The translations under genes were made by a program, and so were the position numbers. A stretch of 37,941 nt of DNA from the NCBI GenBank assembly GCA_012034615.1, contig JAAUPA010000015.1, positions 1-37,941 on the forward strand, written 5' to 3'. Position 1 is the stretch's first letter. Every line of letters starts with the position of its first letter. The DNA comes from Leptolyngbyaceae cyanobacterium CSU_1_4 (GTDB lineage Bacteria > Cyanobacteriota > Cyanobacteriia > Elainellales > Elainellaceae). The notes below the pieces were generated by a model. That model ran no database searches and was not told the origin of the DNA. It saw nothing but the letters and a program-made list of their open reading frames with translations. Of the stretch, positions 4,181 through 28,099 are shown piece after piece.

Positions 4181-5664
4181 CCACGATGCCAATTCGTTAC
4201 GCCGCCTGGTTTGTCGATGAGCATGATCCCATTTTCCTTGAGCTCATCCCGAAGGCGATCGGCTTCAGCAAAGTTCTTAGCCTGCTTGGCTTGATTGCGA
4301 GCTTGAATTTTTGCGTCGATTTCTGCATCCGAGAGAGTACCAGGCGATCGCCAGCCTGATCCTCTGTCTCTGGTCTAGCTTCTAACCCCAAAACCTGCGC
4401 CAAACACACCAACATTTGCCACTGTTGCCTCAGCACTTGGGGATCAGTCGCCGTTTTACCTGCATGGGTCAGAATATTGCCTTCTCGCTGCAAATCTTTT
4501 GCCAACTCAAACAGAACGGCTACGCCTCCGGGCGTGTTCAGGTCATTGTCCATTGCCGTCTGGAAACGCTGAACAAATTCGCTATCCATGGCAATTCTCA
4601 TCGCCGCCGGATCGCCCAAAGAAATATCCTCAGTATCAGCCCAGCCCAGCTTTTCGCCCTGTTGATAGCCAAAGAGCAACCCCTCTTTTAGGGTGCCCAG
4701 CTATTCTGGGCAGAAGCGATCGCCGCTTCGGTAAAGTCCAACGGCTTCCGGTACTGGGCTTGCAGAATAAAGAGTCTGAGCGCCATCGGGTCTAGCCCAG
4801 AATCTAAAAGTCGGCGAATTGTGGTGAAATTGCCCAGGGATTTGGACATTTTTTCACCGTTTACATTCACCATGCCATTGTGCATCCAATAGCGAGCTAA
4901 AGGCTTGCCTGTAACGGCTTCTGATTGAGCAATTTCGTTCTCGTGGTGAGGAAATACTAGGTCTGAGCCGCCCGCATGAATGTCGATCGTGTCACCCAGC
5001 GATCGCGCACCATTGCCGAACATTCAATATGCCATCCCGGACGACCCGCGCCCCAAGGCGACTCCCACGCAGGCTCCCCCGGCTTAGACCCTTTCCACAG
5101 GGCAAAATCAAACGGGTCACGCTTCCGAGTCACCTCTGGATCTTCTCCCTCCAAACGCCCACTCGCTCCCGCCTGCATATCATCCAGCCGCCGTCCCGAC
5201 AGCTTGCCATACTCCGCAAACGATCGCACCGAATAATAGACATCTCCTGCCGCTGGATAAGCAAATCCCTTTTGCTCCAGCTCATGGATCAACCGTTTAA
5301 TGCCGTCTAGGGTGTGGGTCGCGCGCGGGTACTCATCCGCCTCCATCACATTCAGCCGCGCCATATCCTCAAAATATGCCTGAATGTAGTGCTCTGCCAC
5401 CGCTTCCATAGAAGATCCCTCTTTTTTGGCGCGGTTCAAAATCTTGTCGTCAATATCCGTAAAATTCTGCACATACCGAACCTCGTAGCCCCGCCAGCGC
5501 AAATATCGCCGTGCCACATCCCAAATAATGCAGGCTCTAGCATGACCCAAATGGCAATAGTCATACACGGTGACTCCGCAGTAATACATCTTCACCTTGC
5601 CCGCTTCTATCGGCTCAAAGGGTTCTTTTTGGCGAGTTAACGTGTTGTAAAGCGATAGAGTCAT
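4177..5664 (-). CDS. cysS: Cysteinyl-tRNA synthetase (three frame breaks)
   Basis: Class I aminoacyl-tRNA synthetase that charges tRNA-Cys in the cytosol. The start is [16 protein letters not shown]. The HIGH motif appears as HLGHA, KMSKS is present, and the zinc ligands are expected in [17 protein letters not shown] and FPHHENE. The frame changes three times: near 4999-5008 (in GCGATCGCGC, one base missing), at 4691-4693 (GGG should be GGGG, restoring [12 protein letters not shown]), and at the GAGAGAG run 4331-4337 (two bases too many or one too few). The last correction restores the usual C-terminus ([16 protein letters not shown] to TNWHRG) and moves the stop to 4177. The rebuilt length of about 495 residues is normal for cyanobacteria. 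The gene is essential unless another copy exists, so base-calling errors are the likely cause. A hairpin GCCCAG/CTGGGC (4695-4711) sits beside the second break. Confidence 0.88.
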
Positions 5665-11470: not shown

Positions 11471-12637
11471 GTGGAACAAGTCTTAACGCTAGTTTGCAAG
11501 CTTCAACCTACTCCTGAGCAAGTCGTCAAAATTGATGCACTGCTTCAGGCGTTTGCTGATGGCTGCAACTATGCCAATCAGACCGTTAAGCCATCGATAA
11601 ACAGCAAAACCACCATTCAGGCTCAGACTTATCAGGACTTGCGTTCTCAATTCAAATTGAGCGCTAATCAGGCGGTAAGAGTCTGTGCCAGAGTAGGCGC
11701 AAATCGGAAGACAGCAAAGCTGAAAGGTAAGCCTGTTAAATCTTTTGCGCCCACTAGCGCTGATTATGATCTCCGAATCTTCTCTTTTAGGGAGAAGGAT
11801 TGGGCAGTCAGTTTGACGCTTTTGGAATGCCGTGAACACATCAAAATGGATGTAGGCAATTATCAACGCGGCAAACTGAAAGGCAAAGTTCCAACCAGCG
11901 CCCAACTGTGCAAACACAGGGACGGGCGCTACTACATTCATATTCAATTGAAGGCAGAACCACCCAACCCAATCCAATCGGACAAAGTTATCGGTGTTGA
12001 TTTTGGTCGTCGTGAGATTGCCAAAACCAGCACAGGTAAAGGGTGGGACGGCAAGCAGTTGAATCAAGTTCGGGATAGATTTTCTAGAGTTCGGGCATCT
12101 CTCCAGGCAAAAGCATCGAAGGGCACAAGATCGACTCGTCGTCGGGCGAGACAGATTTTGCAACGGCTGTCGGGCAGAGAGAGACGCTTTCAGCAATGGT
12201 TGAATCATTCCATCAGCGCCGCCATTATTCAAGAGGCGAAAGAACTTAACGCTATCATCGCCATTGAAGACTTGAGCGGTATTCGGGATAAGACAAACCA
12301 GCAACCCAGAAACAAGACGGAGCGCCGTCGTTCTAATAGCTGGGCGTTCTATCAATTGCGCCAATTCTTGACCTACAAAGGCATCAAGGAAGGCGTGGAG
12401 GTCGTAACCGTGCCACCTGCCTACACTAGCCAAACTTGCCACGCCTGCAACCATATCGGGTTGAGAAGTGACAAGCGGTTTAAGTGTGGCAACTGTGGCT
12501 GGCATGGTGACGCGGATTTGAATGGTTCGTTCAATATTGCAAATCTTGGAGCCGTTGTAAGTCGGCTTAGAGGCTCGGACACGCTTAGTTGCGATGTCCA
12601 GGGCTACCAAAAGCCCCCCGCTTCAGCGGTGGGGTAA
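11471..12637 (+). CDS. tnpB: TnpB, RNA-guided endonuclease of an IS605-type element
   Basis: A 388-residue TnpB, the ancestor-type of Cas12: a programmable DNA nuclease guided by an RNA from the element's right end. The GTG start gives MEQVLTLVCKLQPTPEQ. The RuvC triad is visible as Asp177 (GVDFG), Glu266 (AIEDLSG) and Asp349 (GDADLNGS). The zinc ribbon uses Cys323, Cys326, Cys339 and Cys342 (TCHAC, CGNC). Length and all catalytic residues are intact, so it is probably active. The stop (12635-12637) lies inside the right-end hairpin, so the coding region and guide-RNA scaffold overlap, as usual. It stands between mreB (divergent) and ssb. Confidence 0.92.
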   Translation: MEQVLTLVCKLQPTPEQVVKIDALLQAFADGCNYANQTVKPSINSKTTIQAQTYQDLRSQFKLSANQAVRVCARVGANRKTAKLKGKPVKSFAPTSADYDLRIFSFREKDWAVSLTLLECREHIKMDVGNYQRGKLKGKVPTSAQLCKHRDGRYYIHIQLKAEPPNPIQSDKVIGVDFGRREIAKTSTGKGWDGKQLNQVRDRFSRVRASLQAKASKGTRSTRRRARQILQRLSGRERRFQQWLNHSISAAIIQEAKELNAIIAIEDLSGIRDKTNQQPRNKTERRRSNSWAFYQLRQFLTYKGIKEGVEVVTVPPAYTSQTCHACNHIGLRSDKRFKCGNCGWHGDADLNGSFNIANLGAVVSRLRGSDTLSCDVQGYQKPPASAVG

Positions 12638-16434: not shown

Positions 16435-19241
16435 ATGGGTTCGCAAAGAGAATCATTAAGCTATAACAAACAACTCGTTGCCCTAGAACTTGCGCTTCAA
16501 GCTCTAGGGGCAGAGGAGACTGAAGAGGGGTTGATTCGGGTCACTTTAGAGTATCTGAAGTCAGAATTGCAATATGCCTTGACATGGCTGGGTCGGTTCG
16601 ATCGCAGCAGTCATCAGCTTTTGGGCAAAGGTGGCAATTGTTCAACCGGAGATCCAAGCTTTTTTAAGCAACGATTTACAGTAGCGCCGGGCAGCTTATT
16701 GGAGCAGGTGCTGGTGCAGCAACACCCCTTAGGAATTCCAAATTTACAAGAAGAATCTAGAGCTGGCGAGTGGAGCATTGCGGCTCGAAAGTTCAATATT
16801 CAAGGAACGGTAATTTTTCCAATTCGCTATAAAAACACCTGTCTTGGCGTAGTTTTGCTAGGTTCGGCACTGTGGGGCACTTCTCCCCACGCTGAGGAAA
16901 AACTCGGCTGTCGATGATTTTGGGCGGGTTGGCAAAGTCGCTTTATGTCTTAGAGGCAGAGCAGCAGCGGCAACAGGTGAAGCGCCTCGACGAACCCTTG
17001 TTAAATCTTTTACCCAAACTGCGATCGCTTCCCAATCTGCAAAGACAGCTTGAGGCGATCGTAGACGAAACCCATCGCTTTGTGATGCCCCATCGCACCA
17101 GCATTTATTGGTACGAACGCAAAGGGCGTTATTTCTGGAAGCGATTGGGCAATCGGGGCATCGGCTTTATGGCGAGAGAAGGGAAACAGCCATCCGAAGA
17201 GATTTCAGTTCAGGAAGTCACGAGCTTTTACTATGGGATGGGTGCAGATCAACTCATCTCGGTAGACGCGGTGGAAGCGTTGTCGCGGGCAGATCAGACC
17301 GGACGACTGATGCAAATGATTCAGGCGCGATCGCTGATTGCGGCTCCTATTCTTTATCAAGGAGAACTACTAGGCTTTTTGTCTGTAGAAAGCAATAAAG
17401 CCCAAATTTGGACAGAGGAAGAAAAAAGTTTTGTGCGCGGGGCTGCCCATTTGGTCGGGCTGACTGCCCCGTTAGAGCGCGTAGAAGAGACTCTTCAACA
17501 AGTCAAACTCGATCAACACTTAACGGCTGAGGTGTCGCGCGCACTTTACAGCGAAGAAGACTGGCAAAGTAGCCTCAAAAAATGTACCGAACAACTCTGC
17601 CAAAGATTTAAGGTGGAACGGTTTTTGGTGTTGCTTTACAACAAAGATTTGAAAAAATTTGAAATTATTTATCAACATCAAGTTCCGGGCAAACGTCGCC
17701 CCTTGCCTACTGTTTTAGACCCACTGGATTCCGTCGATTGGCAAATGTTGGAGCGAAGTTTAGAGGCGATCGCCATTGAGAACTTAGACCATGATTTAAA
17801 GCTAGTGGCATGGCGCAAAACGGTTTTAGACCTAGGAATGCGATCGTTACTCGTTTGCAGCACCTCAGTGGGCAAGCCCCCCGAAGGACTGATGATCCTT
17901 GGCGATGATACAGCACGGAGTTGGAGCCAAGTTGAGCGAGATCTATTCCGAACAGTCAGCCAGCAAATAGGCTTATTGACCCATCAAATTCAGCTTCAGC
18001 GACAAACCGACCAACTGCAAAAGAACTATCAGTCAGTTCAGTGGGGGCTCACCACCTTTCGGCAAACTCAGGATCTAGCGCGCCTAGAGCAAGTTGCGAC
18101 TCAGCAAATTGCCAAAATTCTACAAGCCCCCTTGGTTGCGCTTTTAACTTGGCAGCCCGGTCGAACGTCGGCTCGGGTTGTGGCACCGGTTGTTAATCAG
18201 CAGCAGTTTGGCTTGATTACCGATCTTTTAATTCCCACCCAAACCGATGCTTTGATTCAAGCTGCACTTCAAGCCGATGGACTGATATCGCTGGCTCAGG
18301 ACGAAATTTCACCCGAAACTCGCTATTGGCTCAGCGGTTGTGAAGGGGGTCAGGTTTTAGCCATGGCGCTTCGGACTGCGCCTGAGCATGAACCCACAGG
18401 GATCCTTTTAGTGGGCGATCGCCAAACCCGTACCTGGACAGACCATCAGCTCAATGTCCTAGGCATTTTGGCAAGTCAATTGGCATGGTGTCGGCGTAAC
18501 CTAGGTTTGACCACCAGTCTAGCCATTCAAAAAGAAACCTTAGAACAGCTCAACTGGTACAAACAACGCCGCCTAGAAGAGGTTTATCGCATTTTGGGCA
18601 TGGGCGTTCGGCGGCTGAACGAACTGCCCAACCAGCAAGATACCGCCTCAAATCTGCGCCATCCCCAAATTCTTCGCTACCTCGGTAGCACTCTTTCCGC
18701 TATGGCTCCGCTGCTAAAACATGAGCAATGGCAATTCCATGAGCTGGATGCCTCTATTTCCCTAGCTAGTTTATTAAAGCAAGCCCTAGAGAGAGTGGAC
18801 GGGGTCTTTAAACAGCGTCAGCTTTGGCTCCAAGTCCACAACGAGGTCAGTCTTAACCTCAACGGTGACATTGCCAAAATTGAATTCATCCTGCACGAAA
18901 TCTTAATTCTTGCCTGTGCCCGTTCTCCGGTGGGTGGACGCTTAGATGTTTGGTGCCGCCAGAAGGATGAAAACTTTCTAGATCTCTCTGTGACAGACCA
19001 AGGTCGATTAGACCCTCAGTTGGTGGCGGCATTACAAGCTGGGCGATCGCCCGATCTGCTGCTGCCCTCAGTGTTAAACCAACCGCCCGGACTGCACCTC
19101 GCCATCTGTCGGGATTTGATGCAGCGGATTGGCGGCGAATTCAATCTATCCACCCTGGAAGACCATCGCAGCTTGAGCAGCCTTGTGATTCCGCTCATCT
19201 CTAAAATGCCAACAGCAAAATTGACTGAGATTCAAGCTTAG
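16435..19241 (+). CDS. Multi-GAF-domain protein with degenerate histidine-kinase C-terminus (frameshifted)
   Basis: A soluble sensor-like protein of about 935 residues. The frame breaks at 16906-16907, where GG should be GGG; the fix joins HAEEKLG to LSMILGGLAKSLYVLE. At least three GAF-like regions can be read: about 20-160, about 190-360 (RFVMPHRTSIYWYER, SLIAAPILYQGELLGFLSVES) and about 370-530 (FKVERFLVLLYNKD, RSLLVCSTSVGKPPEGLMIL). A fourth degenerate one probably follows. The C-terminus resembles a HATPase: an N-box-like stretch (IEFILHEILILACA), then LSVTDQGRLDP and PGLHLAICRDLMQRIGG. The helix where the phospho-accepting His should be (NWYKQRRLEEVYRILGMG) has no His. It may therefore be a non-phosphorylating sensor or scaffold. 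Ligand unknown. Confidence 0.78.
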
Positions 19242-19257
19242 AACGCCAGATACTTTT

Positions 19258-19322
19258 ATGGCTTAGCTTTCATGGCTTAGCTTTCATGGCTTAGCTTTCA
19301 TGGCTTAGCTTTTATGGCTTAG
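19258..19322. repeat. 14-bp tandem array between convergent genes
   Basis: ATGGCTTAGCTTTY occurs four times in full and once in part (19258, 19272, 19286, 19300, 19314). It fills most of the 70-base gap between the convergent GAF-protein and mrdA genes and contains the mrdA stop codon (19312-19314). There is no hairpin-plus-T terminator here. Confidence 0.9.
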
Positions 19323-21122
19323 TAGAGGGTTTAGGTTTTGCTTGCCGGAAGAAAACCTTGTAGACTTCGTGGGCAATGGGGATCGCTGCCACACCGCCGT
19401 AGCCACCGTTTTCAACCACGACCGCGATCGCCATCTGCGGCTTGTCGTAGGGTGCATATCCCACATACATGGCGTTAGGCTCCCGACCCGGACCCACCTC
19501 AGCCGTCCCGGTTTTTCCTGCGGTTAAAGGAATAGAGCCATCATTGAGGCTTTGTCCTGTGCCTTTTTGCACCACCGCGACCAAACCTTGTTGAATGGTT
19601 CTAACGGTTTCTGGAGAAAGACCGGTGGCAACTCGCTGGGCGATCGCCGCTTGCTTATCGCTCATCAGTAAATGGGGTTGAACCTGCCAGCCTTGGTTGG
19701 CGATCGCCGCCACCATCACCGCCAATTCCAGGGGCGTTGCTTGCGCCAGTCCTTGCCCAATAGACATACTGACCGTATCGCCGCCGTACCAGGGTTCGCC
19801 GTAGAGTTTTTCCTTCGTGGCAGGCGTAGGAAGGCTGCCGCGAGTCTCTCCTTCTAACCCAGATGGGTTGAACCAATGCCCAGCTTTTTGCCCCATATTG
19901 AGATGGCTTCCGGGCCCGTTTTCAACCCAATTTGGTAAAAAAAGGTGTTACTGCTAAAGGCAAAGGCATCTAAAAAGCCAATCACACCATAGCCCGAATT
20001 ACCATGTTCCCAGAACTGGGTATCGCCCATACTAATAAACGCAGAGGTCATCAGCGTGGAATTAGGAGAAAAATGTCCCGATTCCATGCCTGCTGCTGCC
20101 GTCACAATTTTGAAGGTACTGCCGGGGGGATAGCCTTGAAGAGCCCGATTGAGAAACGGCTGATCGCCAGACTGGAGACGCTGCCAATCTTGATCGGAAA
20201 CCCGTCGAGTAAACGCACCCGGATCAAACGTGGGCGAACTCGCCATGACCAACACTTCGCCCGTGTTGACATCGATCGCCACGACGGCTCCCCGTCTGCC
20301 ATTGAGCGCCTTTTCGGCTGCCTGCTGCATGTCCATATTCAGGGTTAGCTTCACGTCGCGCCCACCCACCGCCGGTTCAATGCCCAATAGCCTAGTTTCT
20401 TTATCGCGGGCATCGACCTCCACCATGCGCTTGCCCCACTGACCTTCTAACTCGGCATTGGCTAAACGCTCCACGCCCATTTGTCCCACAATCATGCCGC
20501 TGGGGTAATTAGGATGAGCTTTGATATCGGCTTCAGAGGCTTCGCCAATGTAGCCCAACACATGGGCGGCTAGTCCGTTACTGGCGTAAGAACGGGTCGA
20601 ACCGACAAAGACCTCAACTCCGGGAAGCTGCTCTTCTTGTTCTGCCAAAGATACGATCGCCGTAGGGCTAATTTGCTGACTAATGCGAACCGGCAAAACC
20701 GAGTTGTAGCCTCCTTTCTGTTTTTGGATGTGCTCCAAAATTTCTTTTGCCGAAATGCCTAGAATCGGGCTGAGTTTAAGGGCGCTTTGCTGCCACTGTT
20801 CAGGGCTTTGTTGCCGGGGCCAGAGATAGACTCCATGGGAAATTCGGTTGCTGGCTAACAGCTTGCCGTTGCGATCGCGGATATTCCCCCGGTCGGCAGG
20901 TAACGGCATAGGGCGAATGCGATTCTGTTCAGCAAGCTGGGCATTGGTTTTGCCTTGAACAAGCTGGAGCTGACCCAGCCGCAAGACACACACGCCCATG
21001 AGAAGGGTGATGCCTCCCATAAAAAATGCCGATCGCCAGAGAATACTTTCTCGCCCCCCCGATCGTTTGACCAGAGATGCCGTGAAACGCTTGTTAGAAG
21101 AACGAGGAATACTACTAGCCAT
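19312..21122 (-). CDS. mrdA: Penicillin-binding protein 2 (elongation transpeptidase, frameshifted)
   Basis: The class B PBP transpeptidase of the rod system, which works with RodA and MreBCD in side-wall synthesis. The start is ATG 21122 (MASSIPRSSNKRFTASLVKR); an upstream in-frame start at 21239 would add 39 atypical residues. One membrane helix lies at about 30-50. The dimerisation domain (PADRGNIRDRNGKLLASNR) is followed by the transpeptidase with SxxK (PPGSTFKI, Ser335), SxN (SSNTFF, about 390) and KTG (AGKTGTAEV). The frame breaks at 19858-19860, where CCC should be CCCC; the fix joins KKLGIGSTHLG to LEGETRGSLPTP. The rebuilt length is about 603 residues, as expected. The last residues (KPKPSTKP) run into the 14-bp array. 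Confidence 0.9.
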
Positions 21123-21449
21123 GCACAATAACCCCGACACATCTCTGATGCTTGACAAATACTTGAAAGCCGCGAGCTTGAAATCCGCGATGTTGATAGG
21201 TTTCCCACAAAAACAACTGCGCCCAACGCCCCCAAGCAACCGGGTTGTGCCTCAGGGAGAGCCTTAAATCCCTGTCCTGAGAGTAGAGAGTAGCTCTAGT
21301 ATCGGGCGGGGCTGTCAATTCAGTTTGATACTCCACAATATCTTTACCAAATCTGCACGGGAGCAGATTGCGCCAATGAATTAGATCGTTAAAGTGCTGC
21401 TATAGGGGAGAATAGGACAGAAATAATCGACCGTGCTCCTCGCCCCCCT
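21123..21449. other. Divergent promoter region of mrdA and the STAS antagonist
   Basis: About 327 bases with no convincing gene. The open frame upstream of mrdA (to 21239) is judged to be leader. Before the STAS gene, CTATAGG at about 21399-21405 could be part of a -10 element about 45 bases before the ATG, but no matching -35 is clear. Confidence 0.4.
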
Positions 21450-21776
21450 ATGGATACGAATATCAAAGTGATTCAACCTGCTGGTGTACTAGATGGGAAC
21501 CAGACTCACCAACTTCGAGGAGAACTGAACGACGTGGTTGGAACTGGGGCAAGGCTAATCTTGGTAGACTTGACCCATGTCACGTTTATGGATAGTTCTG
21601 GGCTAGCAGCCCTGGTGACTGCTTTTAAAACCGTTCGTTCTACGGGCGGTAAGCTGTGTGTGTGCTCGGTCAACCAACAGGTCAGAATGTTGTTTGAACT
21701 AACTAGTATGGATCGGGTCTTTGAAATTTTTGTAGATCAGGAACATTTTATTAAAACGCTTACTCCAGAAGTATAA
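21450..21776 (+). CDS. STAS-domain anti-sigma factor antagonist (RsbV/SpoIIAA type)
   Basis: 108 residues forming a single STAS domain. The phosphorylatable serine lies in VTFMDSSGLAALV, the family hallmark, and the sequence ends in an ordinary STAS C-terminal helix (SMDRVFEIFVDQEHFIKTL). In partner switching the unphosphorylated form binds and removes an anti-sigma kinase; phosphorylation by that kinase inactivates it. A PP2C phosphatase gene lies convergently 5 bases away, and an RsbW-like ATPase gene follows at 23092, so all three roles are encoded together. Confidence 0.9.
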   Translation: MDTNIKVIQPAGVLDGNQTHQLRGELNDVVGTGARLILVDLTHVTFMDSSGLAALVTAFKTVRSTGGKLCVCSVNQQVRMLFELTSMDRVFEIFVDQEHFIKTLTPEV

Positions 21777-21781
21777 ACGGA

Positions 21782-22912
21782 TTAATTAAAGTTGACCCGC
21801 AGTAAAGATAAATCGTCGTCAAATGTCTCAATGCCACTCATTTGTTGGATGGTGGTTAGAACTTCGTCTAGGTTAACAGTGGTTTCTAGCTCCACTAATG
21901 TTTTGGCGAACTCATTTAGCCCCCACGACTGATGGTCGGGCTGGCTAATGTCATACACGCCATCGCTGAAAATATACAGTGTGCTGTTTTTTGGAATGGT
22001 TTGGCGATCGCTAACAAACGTTGCCTCAGTTAACATGCCGATTGGAAAGTTGGGTGTTTTGAGTTGATCCACTTCCATCAGCCCGTCAGCAGTTTGAGAT
22101 CTTAAAATAGCGGGCGGATGCCCTGCACTGGCGTAGGTTAGCTGACGCTTAATTTGGTTGTACACGCCATACCAAATCGTAAAATATTTATCGTTTTGTT
22201 GGCTCATTTGAAACGATTCATTTAATGCCCTTAAAACATCATGAGGTTGATAAAAATTTACATCAGGTAAAGACTGTAATCGCAAAATATTGAGAATTAA
22301 ACTAGAGGGCAACGCCGCGCCTAAACCATGTCCAGAAACATCTAGTAAATACATCACTAAGTAATCTGGATCAAGCCAAAAATAGTCAAAGCAGTCGCCG
22401 CCTAGTTGGCGAGAAGGAATGAATCGAGCGTCGATGCTCACAGAACCTTGCAACGGCTTAGGTAGTAGCGATCGCATGTAGGTAGCTGCCTCAGCGAGTT
22501 CGGCTTCTAGCAATTGCTTTTGGCTCTGTAAGTCTTGGCTTAATTGCTGTAACCGTAATCCTGCCCGAACTCGCGCCTGTAATTCTCCAATGTTAATAGG
22601 CTTGGAAAGGAAATCATCTGCGCCGGTATCTAGCCCTTGAATGCGATCGGCAACACCCCCCCGCGCTGTTAGCAAAATAAAGAAGGTAGTAGATAAGTTG
22701 GGATTAGCTCTAACTTGGCGACAGACCTCTAATCCATCCACAATGGGCATAATCCAATCACAAATAATCATGGCGGGCTGGAGCCGTTGAGCTTGCTCAA
22801 TGCCTTCTTGTCCATTCGTGGCTAGAACCACTTCATGCCCCTGATTTTGTAATGCTTTCTTAATTAAAAGTCGAATTACGGAGTCATCATCAATAACCAG
22901 AATCTTTGACAT
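21782..22912 (-). CDS. Response regulator with PP2C-type (RsbU/SpoIIE) phosphatase domain
   Basis: 376 residues. The N-terminal receiver domain (1-120) has the acidic pocket VIDDDSV, the phospho-acceptor Asp in ICDWIMPIVDG and the conserved Lys in LSKPINIGELQ. A coiled-coil linker (about 125-150) leads to a PP2C/SpoIIE phosphatase (about 165-376) with metal-binding motifs GGDCFDY, LLDVSGHGLGAAL and FSDGVYD, and DDDLSLL at the end. A histidine kinase elsewhere would control dephosphorylation of the neighbouring STAS protein through the receiver. It ends 5 bases from the convergent STAS gene. Confidence 0.93.
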   Translation of the reverse strand: MSKILVIDDDSVIRLLIKKALQNQGHEVVLATNGQEGIEQAQRLQPAMIICDWIMPIVDGLEVCRQVRANPNLSTTFFILLTARGGVADRIQGLDTGADDFLSKPINIGELQARVRAGLRLQQLSQDLQSQKQLLEAELAEAATYMRSLLPKPLQGSVSIDARFIPSRQLGGDCFDYFWLDPDYLVMYLLDVSGHGLGAALPSSLILNILRLQSLPDVNFYQPHDVLRALNESFQMSQQNDKYFTIWYGVYNQIKRQLTYASAGHPPAILRSQTADGLMEVDQLKTPNFPIGMLTEATFVSDRQTIPKNSTLYIFSDGVYDISQPDHQSWGLNEFAKTLVELETTVNLDEVLTTIQQMSGIETFDDDLSLLRVNFN

Positions 22913-23091
22913 AAAAAATGATTTACTTTAACTGGTTTTTAACGTTTATATAGATGAAATAGATAGGTTAGTATGAAAGGTAGAGCATAACAACTTTAGA
23001 TAGCTTGAGAGACGAAGAAGGAAAATGCTTCTTGCTGAATCAATTCGTTGTAAAAAATCATTCATCTCTTTAAATTATTTGGAAGCTCAAA

Positions 23092-23562
23092 ATGAAATTG
23101 CGAAACGTGATTTCGGCAGATTTCTGCCCCTTAGATCCCCCACAAAGAGTAAAAATCTTAGTTCGGACTGATCTCAGCCTCTTAGCACAAGTATTAGATT
23201 GGTTCGATCAATTCAAACACCCTACTTTACCGCACGCGGTCTGGTTACAGTGTCAATTGGCTCTGGCAGAAGGATTTACTAATGCGGTTCGGCACGCACA
23301 TCAGGGAAAACCCTTAGAGGTTCCCATCGAGATTGAAGTCAGTACCCGCAGTCAGGCGATCGAAATCCGCATTTGGGATCAGGGATCAGGTTTTGATTTG
23401 GAACGTTCTCTTAACGCAGTGCCAGCATTCATCGATTTACTGGCAGAGGGAGGGCGAGGGCTAAAGATTATCGAAAAAACTTCTGACGTGTTTAGCTACA
23501 CTCGGACTGCCGATCAGCGGAATTGTTTGCTAATTATTAGAAATTATCCGCCGCAAGCTTGA
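23092..23562 (+). CDS. Anti-sigma regulatory factor, RsbW-like serine kinase ATPase
   Basis: 156 residues of GHKL ATPase fold. The N-box is ALAEGFTNAVRHAH, the G1 box WDQGSGFD, and the G2 region LAEGGRGLKIIEKTSDVF. Such proteins bind either a sigma factor (or another output protein) or the STAS antagonist, and phosphorylate the latter. The ATG at 23092 follows a GGAAG site by about 8 bases. It is divergent from the RR-PP2C gene across 179 bases. The output target is not encoded in the window. Confidence 0.88.
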   Translation: MKLRNVISADFCPLDPPQRVKILVRTDLSLLAQVLDWFDQFKHPTLPHAVWLQCQLALAEGFTNAVRHAHQGKPLEVPIEIEVSTRSQAIEIRIWDQGSGFDLERSLNAVPAFIDLLAEGGRGLKIIEKTSDVFSYTRTADQRNCLLIIRNYPPQA

Positions 23563-24528: not shown

Positions 24529-25749
24529 TTAGCGAATATCCCGGTTCCGTAGAGCTGCTTCTACTGCCATCTGTTGGTCGCGCCGGGTAATCCAACGGTG
24601 ATAGGTGCGAGTGTGGATGGCGACCGAGTGACCCATCATGCGGGCTGCAACGGTGTCCGGTAAGCCAAAGTGAATGGTGCGGACTGCCCAGGCATGGCGG
24701 AGATCGTAGGGAGAAAAGGGAATTTGGTAGCGGCGAAACTGGTTGGTGACCAGTTGACCGATGCGTTGCAGAGTGGTTTGGCTCAAATCGGTGGTGACTG
24801 CTGGAAGCTTGCCTTGACGAAGGTTAAATTGTTCTACCCATTCTGGAAAGAAGGGCCAGACCTCGTGGTGGCCTGTTTTGGTCGTGCTCAGGACTTCAAT
24901 CATGGCGCTAGAATCGTGCGCTAAGGCGCTGTAGTCGCAGAAGAAAACTTCGTGGTTTCTCAGTCCGTAGGTTGCCATGATGCCGTAGACGAATTGCCAA
25001 TTTGGGTTTTTGATGTGGTGGAAGGTGTCGATGATTTGGAGGTCGGTGGGGAGGCTCCGCATTTGGGTATGGTTGGGGCTGTAGTTGCCCCAAAGTTTTT
25101 TGAGGTCGGTGGGAAGTTCGAGGTGAAGAAACTTGGCGAGGGCGACGAGGGCAGTGCCACAAATTTGGCGGCTGCGAGAGTTGGCTTCTGTGGCTTGGAT
25201 GGTGGCGCAAATGGCTTCGGCGAGGCTGAGCTGGGTATGAGATTGGGCGATCGCTGCCAATTTTTTCAGGTAAGGGGCATAGGCTTTTTCCCAGGTTGTT
25301 TTTGCTGAAGCACCGCTTTTTTCTGCAAAAAAATGCTGTTCAAAGGCTGCTATTTTCTCCGCTAAATCCATTTGGCTCAGTCGTCCGCCGCCTGTCACGG
25401 GTAGATATTGCCGCCAGTCGAAGGCATTTTGAATGAGTTGAGCCGCAATGATTTTCACTTCCTGTTCGGCTTGCTTGAGCCCAGCCGGAGTTGCCGGAAC
25501 GTTGAGGCTGAGGCGCTGTTGGTGCGATCGCAGCCTAGGGCTACCCGGACGAGGCGGCAAAACTCCTCTGAGGCTGAGCTTTTGTCCGCGGCGCTCGATC
25601 TGAAACCCCATTTGAGCCATTTTTAACCGTTGATTCACCTGAACCAGGCGGTCATCCATGCCAGTATTCTGAGTATTTTGAGTATTCTGAGAAGTTCTCG
25701 GGGTTGAAGCTTTTAGCGGTTGATTGGGCATTTCATCTGGCTTTGACAA
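24529..25749 (-). CDS. Tyrosine-type site-specific recombinase/integrase-like protein
   Basis: 406 residues. The C-terminal catalytic domain shows the first Arg (TYGLRNHEV), the beta-hairpin Lys (TTKTGHHEV), the second Arg (PYDLRHAWAVR), the His (MMGHSVAIH) and the Tyr (TRTYHRW). The position usually His in the HxxR motif is Tyr here (YDLR). The N-terminal part has a low-complexity NTQNTQNT stretch coded by a 9-base tandem repeat (about 25660-25690), then a basic region (about 30-110). There are no phage genes, att repeats or tRNA beside it. It therefore looks like a resident chromosomal recombinase rather than part of a current prophage. Confidence 0.78.
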   Translation of the reverse strand: MSKPDEMPNQPLKASTPRTSQNTQNTQNTGMDDRLVQVNQRLKMAQMGFQIERRGQKLSLRGVLPPRPGSPRLRSHQQRLSLNVPATPAGLKQAEQEVKIIAAQLIQNAFDWRQYLPVTGGGRLSQMDLAEKIAAFEQHFFAEKSGASAKTTWEKAYAPYLKKLAAIAQSHTQLSLAEAICATIQATEANSRSRQICGTALVALAKFLHLELPTDLKKLWGNYSPNHTQMRSLPTDLQIIDTFHHIKNPNWQFVYGIMATYGLRNHEVFFCDYSALAHDSSAMIEVLSTTKTGHHEVWPFFPEWVEQFNLRQGKLPAVTTDLSQTTLQRIGQLVTNQFRRYQIPFSPYDLRHAWAVRTIHFGLPDTVAARMMGHSVAIHTRTYHRWITRRDQQMAVEAALRNRDIR

Positions 25750-27231: not shown

Positions 27232-28099
27232 CTACTGAGGCAGGAGTGGCAGCAGCAGTGTGACAAAGTAGTAGACCAAAGGCGCAGTAAATACATAGCT
27301 GTCTGCCCGGTCTAGGATGCCGCCGTGTCCTGGAATCAGTTGCCCTGAGTCTTTGACTCCAGCATCGCGTTTCATCATGGACTCTGTGAGGTCGCCCAGT
27401 AAGCTGGCGATGCCAATGAGTAGCCCCAGCGCCATGCCGCTCAGCGGGGCACCTGCCCACCCTAAATGCCATGCCCCAATCGTAGCAACGGCAATGCTTG
27501 CCATCACGCCAAAGACAGCGCCTTCTACAGTTTTCTTGGGGCTAATGTCGGTGAGGCGGGTGCGACCAAATAATTTTCCAAAGGCATAAGCCCCAATATC
27601 GGCTGCCCAAATACAAAAGAATGCCAGCAGCGTAAGGGTTAGTCCTTGGGGTAGCTCTTGGAGAGCGGGGAGGGGGGAAGGGGGGGAAATATCCACCCAG
27701 GGGAAGATCGCCATTGCCGCCGAGCGATCGCAGCCTGACCCAGTAGCTCGGTAAATAGCCGCCATAGAACAGCCCTAAAATGGAGGCTGAGATATCAGCA
27801 ATACTGGCAAATTTTGGCTGAAATAGAAGATAGAAGCAAATAAAAGTGCCAGCAACGGGCATGACCGCATCTGCCAAGGTGGGAGAAAGGGTCGAAATGA
27901 CGAGCAAGGCTTGGCTGACGACCAGGGTTGTTTTTCCGGCGGGAATCATCCCCTTTGCCCGGACAAGCTGGAAATACTCAAGCTGCCCCAGGTACACAAT
28001 AATGGCGAAACAAAGCGTGAAATACCAGCCACCCAAGAGAATCATCCCCAGAGCAAGGGCGATCGCAATAATGGCACTGAGGATACGAGGCAAGGGCAT
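27232..28099 (-). CDS. cdsA: Phosphatidate cytidylyltransferase (CDP-diglyceride synthase, frameshifted)
   Basis: An integral membrane enzyme that makes CDP-diacylglycerol from CTP and phosphatidic acid, the branch point of phospholipid synthesis. Starting MPLPRILSAIIAIALALG, it has several membrane helices. The family signature lies near the C-terminus (SLLGDLTESMMKRDAGVKD, PGHGGILDRADS). The frame breaks at 27700-27703, where four G on the plus strand should be three; the fix joins GGNGDLP to WVDISPPSPLP. The rebuilt length is about 289 residues, normal for the family. Both halves are fully conserved, including the catalytic region, and the gene is essential in bacteria, so an error in the sequence is likely. 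Confidence 0.9.

Follow-up and report, generated by a model that had tools for sequence, protein, structure and literature searches.

The 37,941-nucleotide contig JAAUPA010000015.1 of Leptolyngbyaceae cyanobacterium CSU_1_4 (assembly GCA_012034615.1, positions 1 to 37,941 of the forward strand), analyzed whole and hereafter called the window, carries three neighboring genes termed V, U, and W that quite likely encode a three-protein partner switch, distinct from the cyanobacterial HmpUVW system and acting through the steps proposed below. V (21450..21776, plus strand) codes for a single-domain STAS protein of 108 amino acids (aa) of the anti-sigma-antagonist type (Pfam STAS 2e-20), with the presumed phosphoacceptor motif FMDSSGL comprising D48, S49, S50, and G51. 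Its 3' end converges with that of U (21782..22912, minus strand) across a gap of 5 bases (21777..21781), and the 376 aa encoded by U form a receiver (Pfam Response_reg 1.1e-26), a 41-residue helix, and a SpoIIE/RsbU-type PP2C phosphatase (Pfam SpoIIE-type PP2C 5.7e-37). U and W are transcribed away from each other from either side of a 179-base intergenic region (22913..23091) that presumably contains both promoters, and W (23092..23562, plus strand) codes for a 156 aa RsbW/SpoIIAB-like serine kinase (Pfam HATPase_c_2 2.2e-22) with the N box LAEGFTNAVRHAH and the G2 box GGRGLKI. With V and U convergent and U and W divergent, a single transcript shared by the three genes is precluded. A preliminary description of this DNA had given the same open reading frames (ORFs), the same plus, minus, plus strands, and the same 5-base spacing between V and U, and its finding is genuine and correctly described. 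Its term "complete module" applies to the kinase, substrate, and phosphatase; the sensor or Hpt gene that lies next to approximately half of the modules in relatives is missing here.

The three proteins possess the hallmarks of the RsbUVW/SpoIIAB-type class, namely the N and G boxes of a GHKL kinase, the DSSG motif of a STAS protein, and the Asp residues of a SpoIIE-type PP2C phosphatase. Residues E60, N64, G98, G121, and G123 of W were invariant in all 32 aligned kinases and D48, S49, S50, and G51 of V in all 30 aligned STAS proteins. The same was true in 32 of 32 aligned U proteins for the receiver residues D8, D9, D52, T82, and K104 and for D173, D191, G194, H195, G196, D317, D366, and D367 of the PP2C domain. 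The functions of these residues, including metal binding by Asp residues of the PP2C domain, are presumably those generally known for the respective families. By sequence, the closest solved structures were SpoIIAA for V (3e-19, among the SpoIIAA-type antagonists) and RsbW (2e-9) followed by SpoIIAB (4e-5) for W. The AlphaFold model of W (mean pLDDT 82.7, with residues 1-14 and 113-118 below 50) resembled SpoIIAB 1til (TM 0.70/0.77) and also matched 1l0o, a SpoIIAB chain crystallized with sigma F. In the U model (mean pLDDT 88.5), helix 108-148 joins the two domains and the predicted fold is similar to that of Pseudomonas aeruginosa RssB, likewise a receiver-PP2C protein (3f7a; E 4.6e-29, 27% identity, whole-length TM 0.54). 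V passed the superfamily model TIGR00377 (75.5 bits, cut-off 53.45), and both proteins tested on NCBIfam equivalog models failed them (V on the SpoIIAA model TIGR02886, 63.7 vs a cut-off of 114.75; W on the RsbW model NF003144, 37.6 vs 145).

Comparison of the sister genome of the same genus (G033) and the window's genome (G000; completeness 100% vs 95%) showed no indels in V, U, or W. The genes are intact and under strong and equal purifying selection with dN/dS of 0.02-0.03 (V, dN 0.016 and dS 0.54; U, dN 0.013 and dS 0.61; W, dN 0.011 and dS 0.65). Since several neighboring genes are split in the window, this intactness is informative.

Kinase neighborhoods sampled from the window's order and from the phylum were sorted by gene context into type T1, the window's own (V> <U W>); T2, with W downstream of petB and petD; T3, with W downstream of a REC-GAF-PP2C gene on the same strand; and T4, in which W adjoins a gene encoding a fusion of STAS and bacterial sugar transferase domains. 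Any W beside a STAS-sugar-transferase gene, or with no PP2C gene (<450 aa) within three genes, was excluded from the T1 count, and the survey called ORFs of at least 75 aa. The 55 T1 loci comprised 31 from the order (all in one family) and 24 from elsewhere, with 15 of the 55 from Nostoc and its relatives, and these loci are not independent. Family f6 was taken as Nostocales through matched named records, and the names petB, petD, ctpA, hemH, cdsA, and PBP2 were read from sequence, with which Pfam agreed in the examples tried. U was divergent from W in 54 of the 55 loci and V was the convergent neighbor of U in 44, such that the layout recurs across several cyanobacterial families. Across 54 convergent V/U pairs, counted with or without W, the median gap was 37.5 bases, with a spacing of 10 bases or fewer in 19 and an overlap in eight. 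A kinase matching at T1-like strength was found in nine of 12 named Nostocales genomes, and V, U, and W were all present at the seven loci fetched from those nine. Of 386 genomes from the phylum, 112 contained the U family (E <=1e-80), solitary members included. When 103 W proteins were placed in a tree, the T2 (21 rows; support 96/95), T3 (seven rows; 100/100), and T4 (10 rows; 92/87) labels each required one change.

Two T1 loci had peculiarities of their own. The U gene at L129 (G195), retained in the T1 set, is broken by a 486-aa ORF on the opposite strand that is perhaps an insertion element, and its GT2 ORF is short. At L060, a T1 module stands back to back with a T4 pair of STAS-sugar transferase and W, the two W genes being convergent. 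A separate arrangement was that of T2, with an RsbW-like gene after the cytochrome b6f genes petB/petD and often a divergent ctpA, found in the three families f1, f6, and f7 (L072, L074, L075, L076, L080, L081, L083, L085, L090, L091, L094, L096, L098, L130, L133, L135, L140, L141, L145, L146, and L163); its 21 kinases form the single T2 clade.

In the proposed mechanism, W would inactivate V by phosphorylating Ser49 or Ser50, the phosphorylated receiver would gate the PP2C domain of U to remove the phosphate from V, and the unphosphorylated V would build up and bind its partner. We infer the direction of these reactions and the identity of the phosphoserine from the protein families; the core mechanism is likely and the target uncertain. 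The ancestral input would be a hybrid histidine kinase passing phosphate via an Hpt domain to the U receiver, and in the window's genus another donor would act on U.

To judge from gene neighborhoods in relatives, a phosphorelay probably provided the ancestral input. At 26 of the 55 T1 loci (14/31 in the order and 12/24 elsewhere), a gene encoding an Hpt domain lay no more than two genes downstream of W in convergent orientation, the count rising to 27 with the Hpt gene of L051 (G029), which ORF calling had missed and tblastn recovered; at one extra locus, L143, the Hpt gene is near W and in the same orientation. These neighbors encode an Hpt domain alone, a receiver-Hpt protein, or a full sensor-HisKA-HATPase-receiver-Hpt kinase. 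Hpt was also the commonest Pfam family around 32 T1 loci (11 of 108 neighboring ORFs of between 100 and 1300 aa). In G061 (L322) and at the T4 loci L136 and L142, the gene for an Hpt-bearing hybrid kinase precedes U in the same direction, with a 76-aa ORF intervening in the last, so the link between kinase and module survives other gene orders. The neighborhood survey found no Hpt-bearing neighbor at 28 of the 55 T1 loci. A single Hpt query did not find the module Hpt in the window's genus (best E 0.08 in the window's genome and 0.006 in its sister), while the same query recovered that of five other genomes of the order at 2e-13 or better, and no remnant of the gene was found between W and the following methyltransferase gene. 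The Hpt gene would accordingly have been lost in this genus, to judge from its absence beside the module, and the phosphodonor of U there must be another. The search for a histidine kinase acting on the receiver, advised in the preliminary description and carried out by comparative genomics, therefore yielded an Hpt phosphorelay beside the module in relatives and none in the window's genus. The GAF protein upstream of V (16435-19241) was considered as a histidine kinase and rejected: Pfam, run on its 936-aa sister protein and on L054, detected GAF only, with neither HisKA nor HATPase_c, and its C-terminus gave weak NCBIfam histidine-kinase matches far below the cut-off (best 3.9e-9).

The preliminary description had noted no adjacent sigma factor or cyclase and had left the target of the switch open. 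A Pfam scan of the window ORFs, covering those of at least 110 aa except for several that overlap, found neither, and the window itself gives no hint of the target. The description had further remarked that such cyanobacterial modules can control outputs other than sigma factors, which is plausible given that HmpV has been suggested to act as the HmpUVW output (PMC6495340; PMC8256260), although the cyanobacterial RsbW-like kinase Slr1861 is reported to control the sigma factor SigC (PMC12329169); the two precedents conflict as to output. A classical anti-sigma switch, in which W would sequester a sigma factor from another locus until V frees it, as Ssr1600/Slr1861 do for SigC, has a chance somewhat short of even. 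The predicted fold of W is like that of SpoIIAB, including the sigma F-bound chain 1l0o, the window's genome contains 11 sigma-70 region 2 matches, and Slr1861 controls SigC even though the icfG cluster genes named in the source include no sigma factor (PMC12329169). Apart from the lack of a sigma gene in the scanned window ORFs, this explanation is opposed by a survey of 24 genomes (273 matches, those listed extending down to approximately E 2e-19, with fragmented assemblies leaving genes on separate contigs without a position) in which no listed sigma match lay within 8 kb of a module, the nearest being at 11 kb in G010. Sigma domains were also not among the 25 commonest of the 137 families represented in the 108 ORFs neighboring the 32 loci.

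Surface polysaccharide is a reasonable candidate output, as suggested by GT2 and STAS-sugar-transferase genes that neighbor the module in relatives. In Nostocales, a GT2 gene matching Cellulose_synt precedes V on the same strand at 13 of 15 loci (657-689 aa in 12 and a 292-aa ORF in one), accompanied in seven of the 13 by a PIG-L deacetylase gene; a GT2 gene also precedes V at L165 in another family, and in G018 of the window's own family V is preceded by a STAS-sugar-transferase gene (L052). Fusions of this kind were found at L052, L060, L079, L097, L136, L142, L144, L150, L160, L162, L166, and L168, with DSSG retained in all 12 sequences listed and the W kinase gene directly adjoining the fusion at 10 of the 12; the L060 protein matched Bac_transf (1.6e-65) and STAS (7e-14), and that of L142 was similar. 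A STAS domain, either as V encoded behind a GT2 gene or fused to a sugar transferase, would toggle the enzyme upon phosphorylation by W.

Several observations weigh against such an output for the window itself. Neither link is present in the window, the T1 loci of the order showed a GT2 neighbor in none of 31 and a STAS-sugar-transferase fusion in one of 31, and ten genomes of the order that were tried gave only partial matches to the Nostocales GT2 at 29-40% identity. The neighbors of V that recur in the order are instead a divergent PBP2 gene (eight loci) or the GAF protein (10/31). PBP2 was not adopted as the partner of V, as the divergent V/PBP2 pair of the eight loci may merely reflect an ancient gene arrangement. 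The idea that cyanobacteria have a family of STAS switches driven by phosphorelays, whose direct output is a surface-polysaccharide enzyme, with the partner gene of the window's module located elsewhere, is put forward only tentatively and is rather unlikely as a whole. For the window's module, a function in the cell envelope or extracellular polysaccharide is slightly favored over a sigma factor.

The reading of V, U, and W as a partner-switching set is supported by their domains, by catalytic residues that do not vary, by the folds they match, and by their conserved linkage; the phosphorylation of V by W and the interactions of the three proteins are predictions, which is the first of several points that count against this reading. 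In the W tree, T1 did not form one clade, its label requiring five changes, and 52 of the 55 T1 rows fell with eight untyped rows in one group of moderate support (82/74), leaving L078, L156, and L158 outside. T1 was not one clade in the tree of 73 U proteins either, where 14 Nostocales T1 proteins formed a clade separate from that of most solitary Nostocales U, and the U proteins of the window's order clustered with the three T4 proteins. V adjoined solitary U at nine of 18 loci fetched, with no W within five genes at any of the loci listed, so V and U are not necessarily tied to W alone. The identity of the window V to Nostocales T1 V was 45-53% vs 41-51% to V beside solitary U, and that of the window U was 58-59% to Nostocales T1 U vs 57-61% to solitary f6 U, with full-length f6 matches at 55-61%; neither value reveals which Nostocales pair is orthologous to that of the window. 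The association of V with U may predate that with W, and in some lineages the kinase could come from another locus, a possibility that lowered our confidence in the three-protein switch by a small step.

An alternative is a network in which V and U rely on a different kinase or W acts on more than one STAS protein, an arrangement less probable than the anti-sigma switch and still to be taken seriously. It is in keeping with two RsbW-like kinases (from the W search), four PF13581 proteins above cut-off, and eight PF01740 STAS matches in the window's own genome, with the Nostocales having a second V-U pair devoid of W while one W sits behind petBD, and with the reported phosphorylation of several STAS proteins by Slr1861 (PMC12329169). 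Set against it are the equal constraint on V, U, and W and the presence of W within three genes of a U-type gene at 55 loci, as opposed to no PP2C gene within three genes of any of the 21 petBD-type kinases; nearness defines the modules, so that it is the contrast alone that counts. The second V-U pairs were seen at L315, L316, L317, L318, L322, L324, L325, L330, and L332, with the ends of V and U touching or overlapping in most, and a DUF1350 gene adjoined U in both of the scanned examples.

The three-protein switch of the window is probably distinct from HmpUVW, which likewise combines a kinase, a PP2C phosphatase, and a STAS protein in a filamentous cyanobacterium with an output that is not known. 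A published table equates HmpU with Npun_R5135 and HmpW with Npun_R5134, adjacent numbers on one strand, and HmpV with Npun_F5169, and reports identities to Leptolyngbya boryana of 63.5%, 67.6%, and 72.3% for HmpU, HmpW, and HmpV, respectively (PMC10581220). The T3 layout matches this arrangement of HmpU and HmpW and was present at 11 listed loci of named records, one being Nostoc punctiforme NIES-2108. At the search sensitivity used, the window's genome and its sister each contain two RsbW-like kinases, one T1 and one T3, and the T3 kinase of the window's genome is encoded on contig C365 in a co-directional U-W pair whose U is a REC-GAF-PP2C phosphatase. The C365 U had 62-66% identity to those of six Nostocales T3 loci and the C365 W 68-71% to five of the six, the sixth (L210) giving only a 7-residue match, while at seven Nostocales T1 loci the identities of the window pair were 58-59% for U and 40-50% for W. 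Support for the C365 pair as the counterpart of HmpU/HmpW is strong but indirect, as it comes through Nostocales loci other than N. punctiforme PCC 73102, a strain outside the fetched set. Taking that pair as HmpUW, the window's U differs in sequence and in having no GAF domain, and the gene order and strands differ too, with V, U, and W together and U divergent from W in place of U and W adjacent on one strand and V apart. Orthology of the window's module with HmpUVW and control of hormogonium-type motility, for which the same three kinds of protein and the suggestion that HmpUVW also works via its STAS protein (PMC8256260) could be adduced, was set aside as very improbable in view of the gene order, the domain architecture, and the identities measured, the C365 pair and not the window pair fitting the published layout and identities. 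Synteny in 12 named Nostocales genomes was inspected for a STAS gene approximately 35 genes from the hmpUW-type locus, and with indecisive distances HmpV was not identified. A STAS protein of the window's genome, L042 on C229, has 79% identity to L280 of Nostoc and is only a candidate for HmpV.

Among other known systems, the HptB-HsbR-HsbA pathway of P. aeruginosa resembles the proposed ancestral route, with hybrid sensor kinases acting through Hpt on a receiver-phosphatase and then on a STAS protein, which binds one partner or another according to its phosphorylation state (PMC5085249; PMC6482189); phosphorylated HptB is reported to activate the HsbR phosphatase, leading to dephosphorylation of HsbA (PMC5085249). 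As described in these sources, HsbR is both kinase and phosphatase, whereas the window's U consists of a receiver and PP2C with the kinase as the separate W; in addition, none of the scanned window ORFs corresponds to FlgM or the cyclase HsbD, the partners of HsbA, and no Hpt was found in the window's genus. The Slr1861/Ssr1600/SigC system and icfG cluster of Synechocystis share an RsbW-like kinase, a STAS substrate, and a phosphorylation switch, but icfG and slr1861 are described as belonging to one operon with other genes while U and W of the window diverge, a comparison made by description (PMC12329169). The likeness to Bacillus RsbUVW and SpoIIAA/SpoIIAB lies in folds and sequence families as judged from sequence and fold matches, and the window's cluster differs by its lack of a sigma gene and of a single transcript and by scores far below the equivalog cut-offs.

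This recurrent cyanobacterial switch is thus set apart from the two for which descriptions were found, HmpUVW and Slr1861/Ssr1600. The titles and abstract openings of the literature matches listed named neither a cyanobacterial V-U-W-Hpt module nor a STAS-sugar-transferase fusion. The analysis supplies a testable input in the form of the Hpt-bearing hybrid kinase of relatives and names concrete output candidates, and a STAS-sugar-transferase fusion adjoining a kinase gene makes the question of a non-sigma output directly testable.

Elsewhere in the window, the genes for the GAF protein (16435-19241), PBP2 (19312-21239), and a cdsA-like protein (27232-28099) are split and are single ORFs in the sister genome, the first two being broken by one-base gaps within an A or C run. 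A cysteinyl-tRNA-synthetase-like gene (4197-5664) and an ABC transporter gene (336-1575) also appear split, and these breaks are probably assembly or sequencing indels. An IS605 OrfB/TnpB-like gene (11471-12637) adjoins mreB-mreC-mreD, and an integrase-like ORF (24529-25749; Phage_integrase 2.2e-4, below cut-off) with relatives in seven loci is situated between the methyltransferase gene and hemH.

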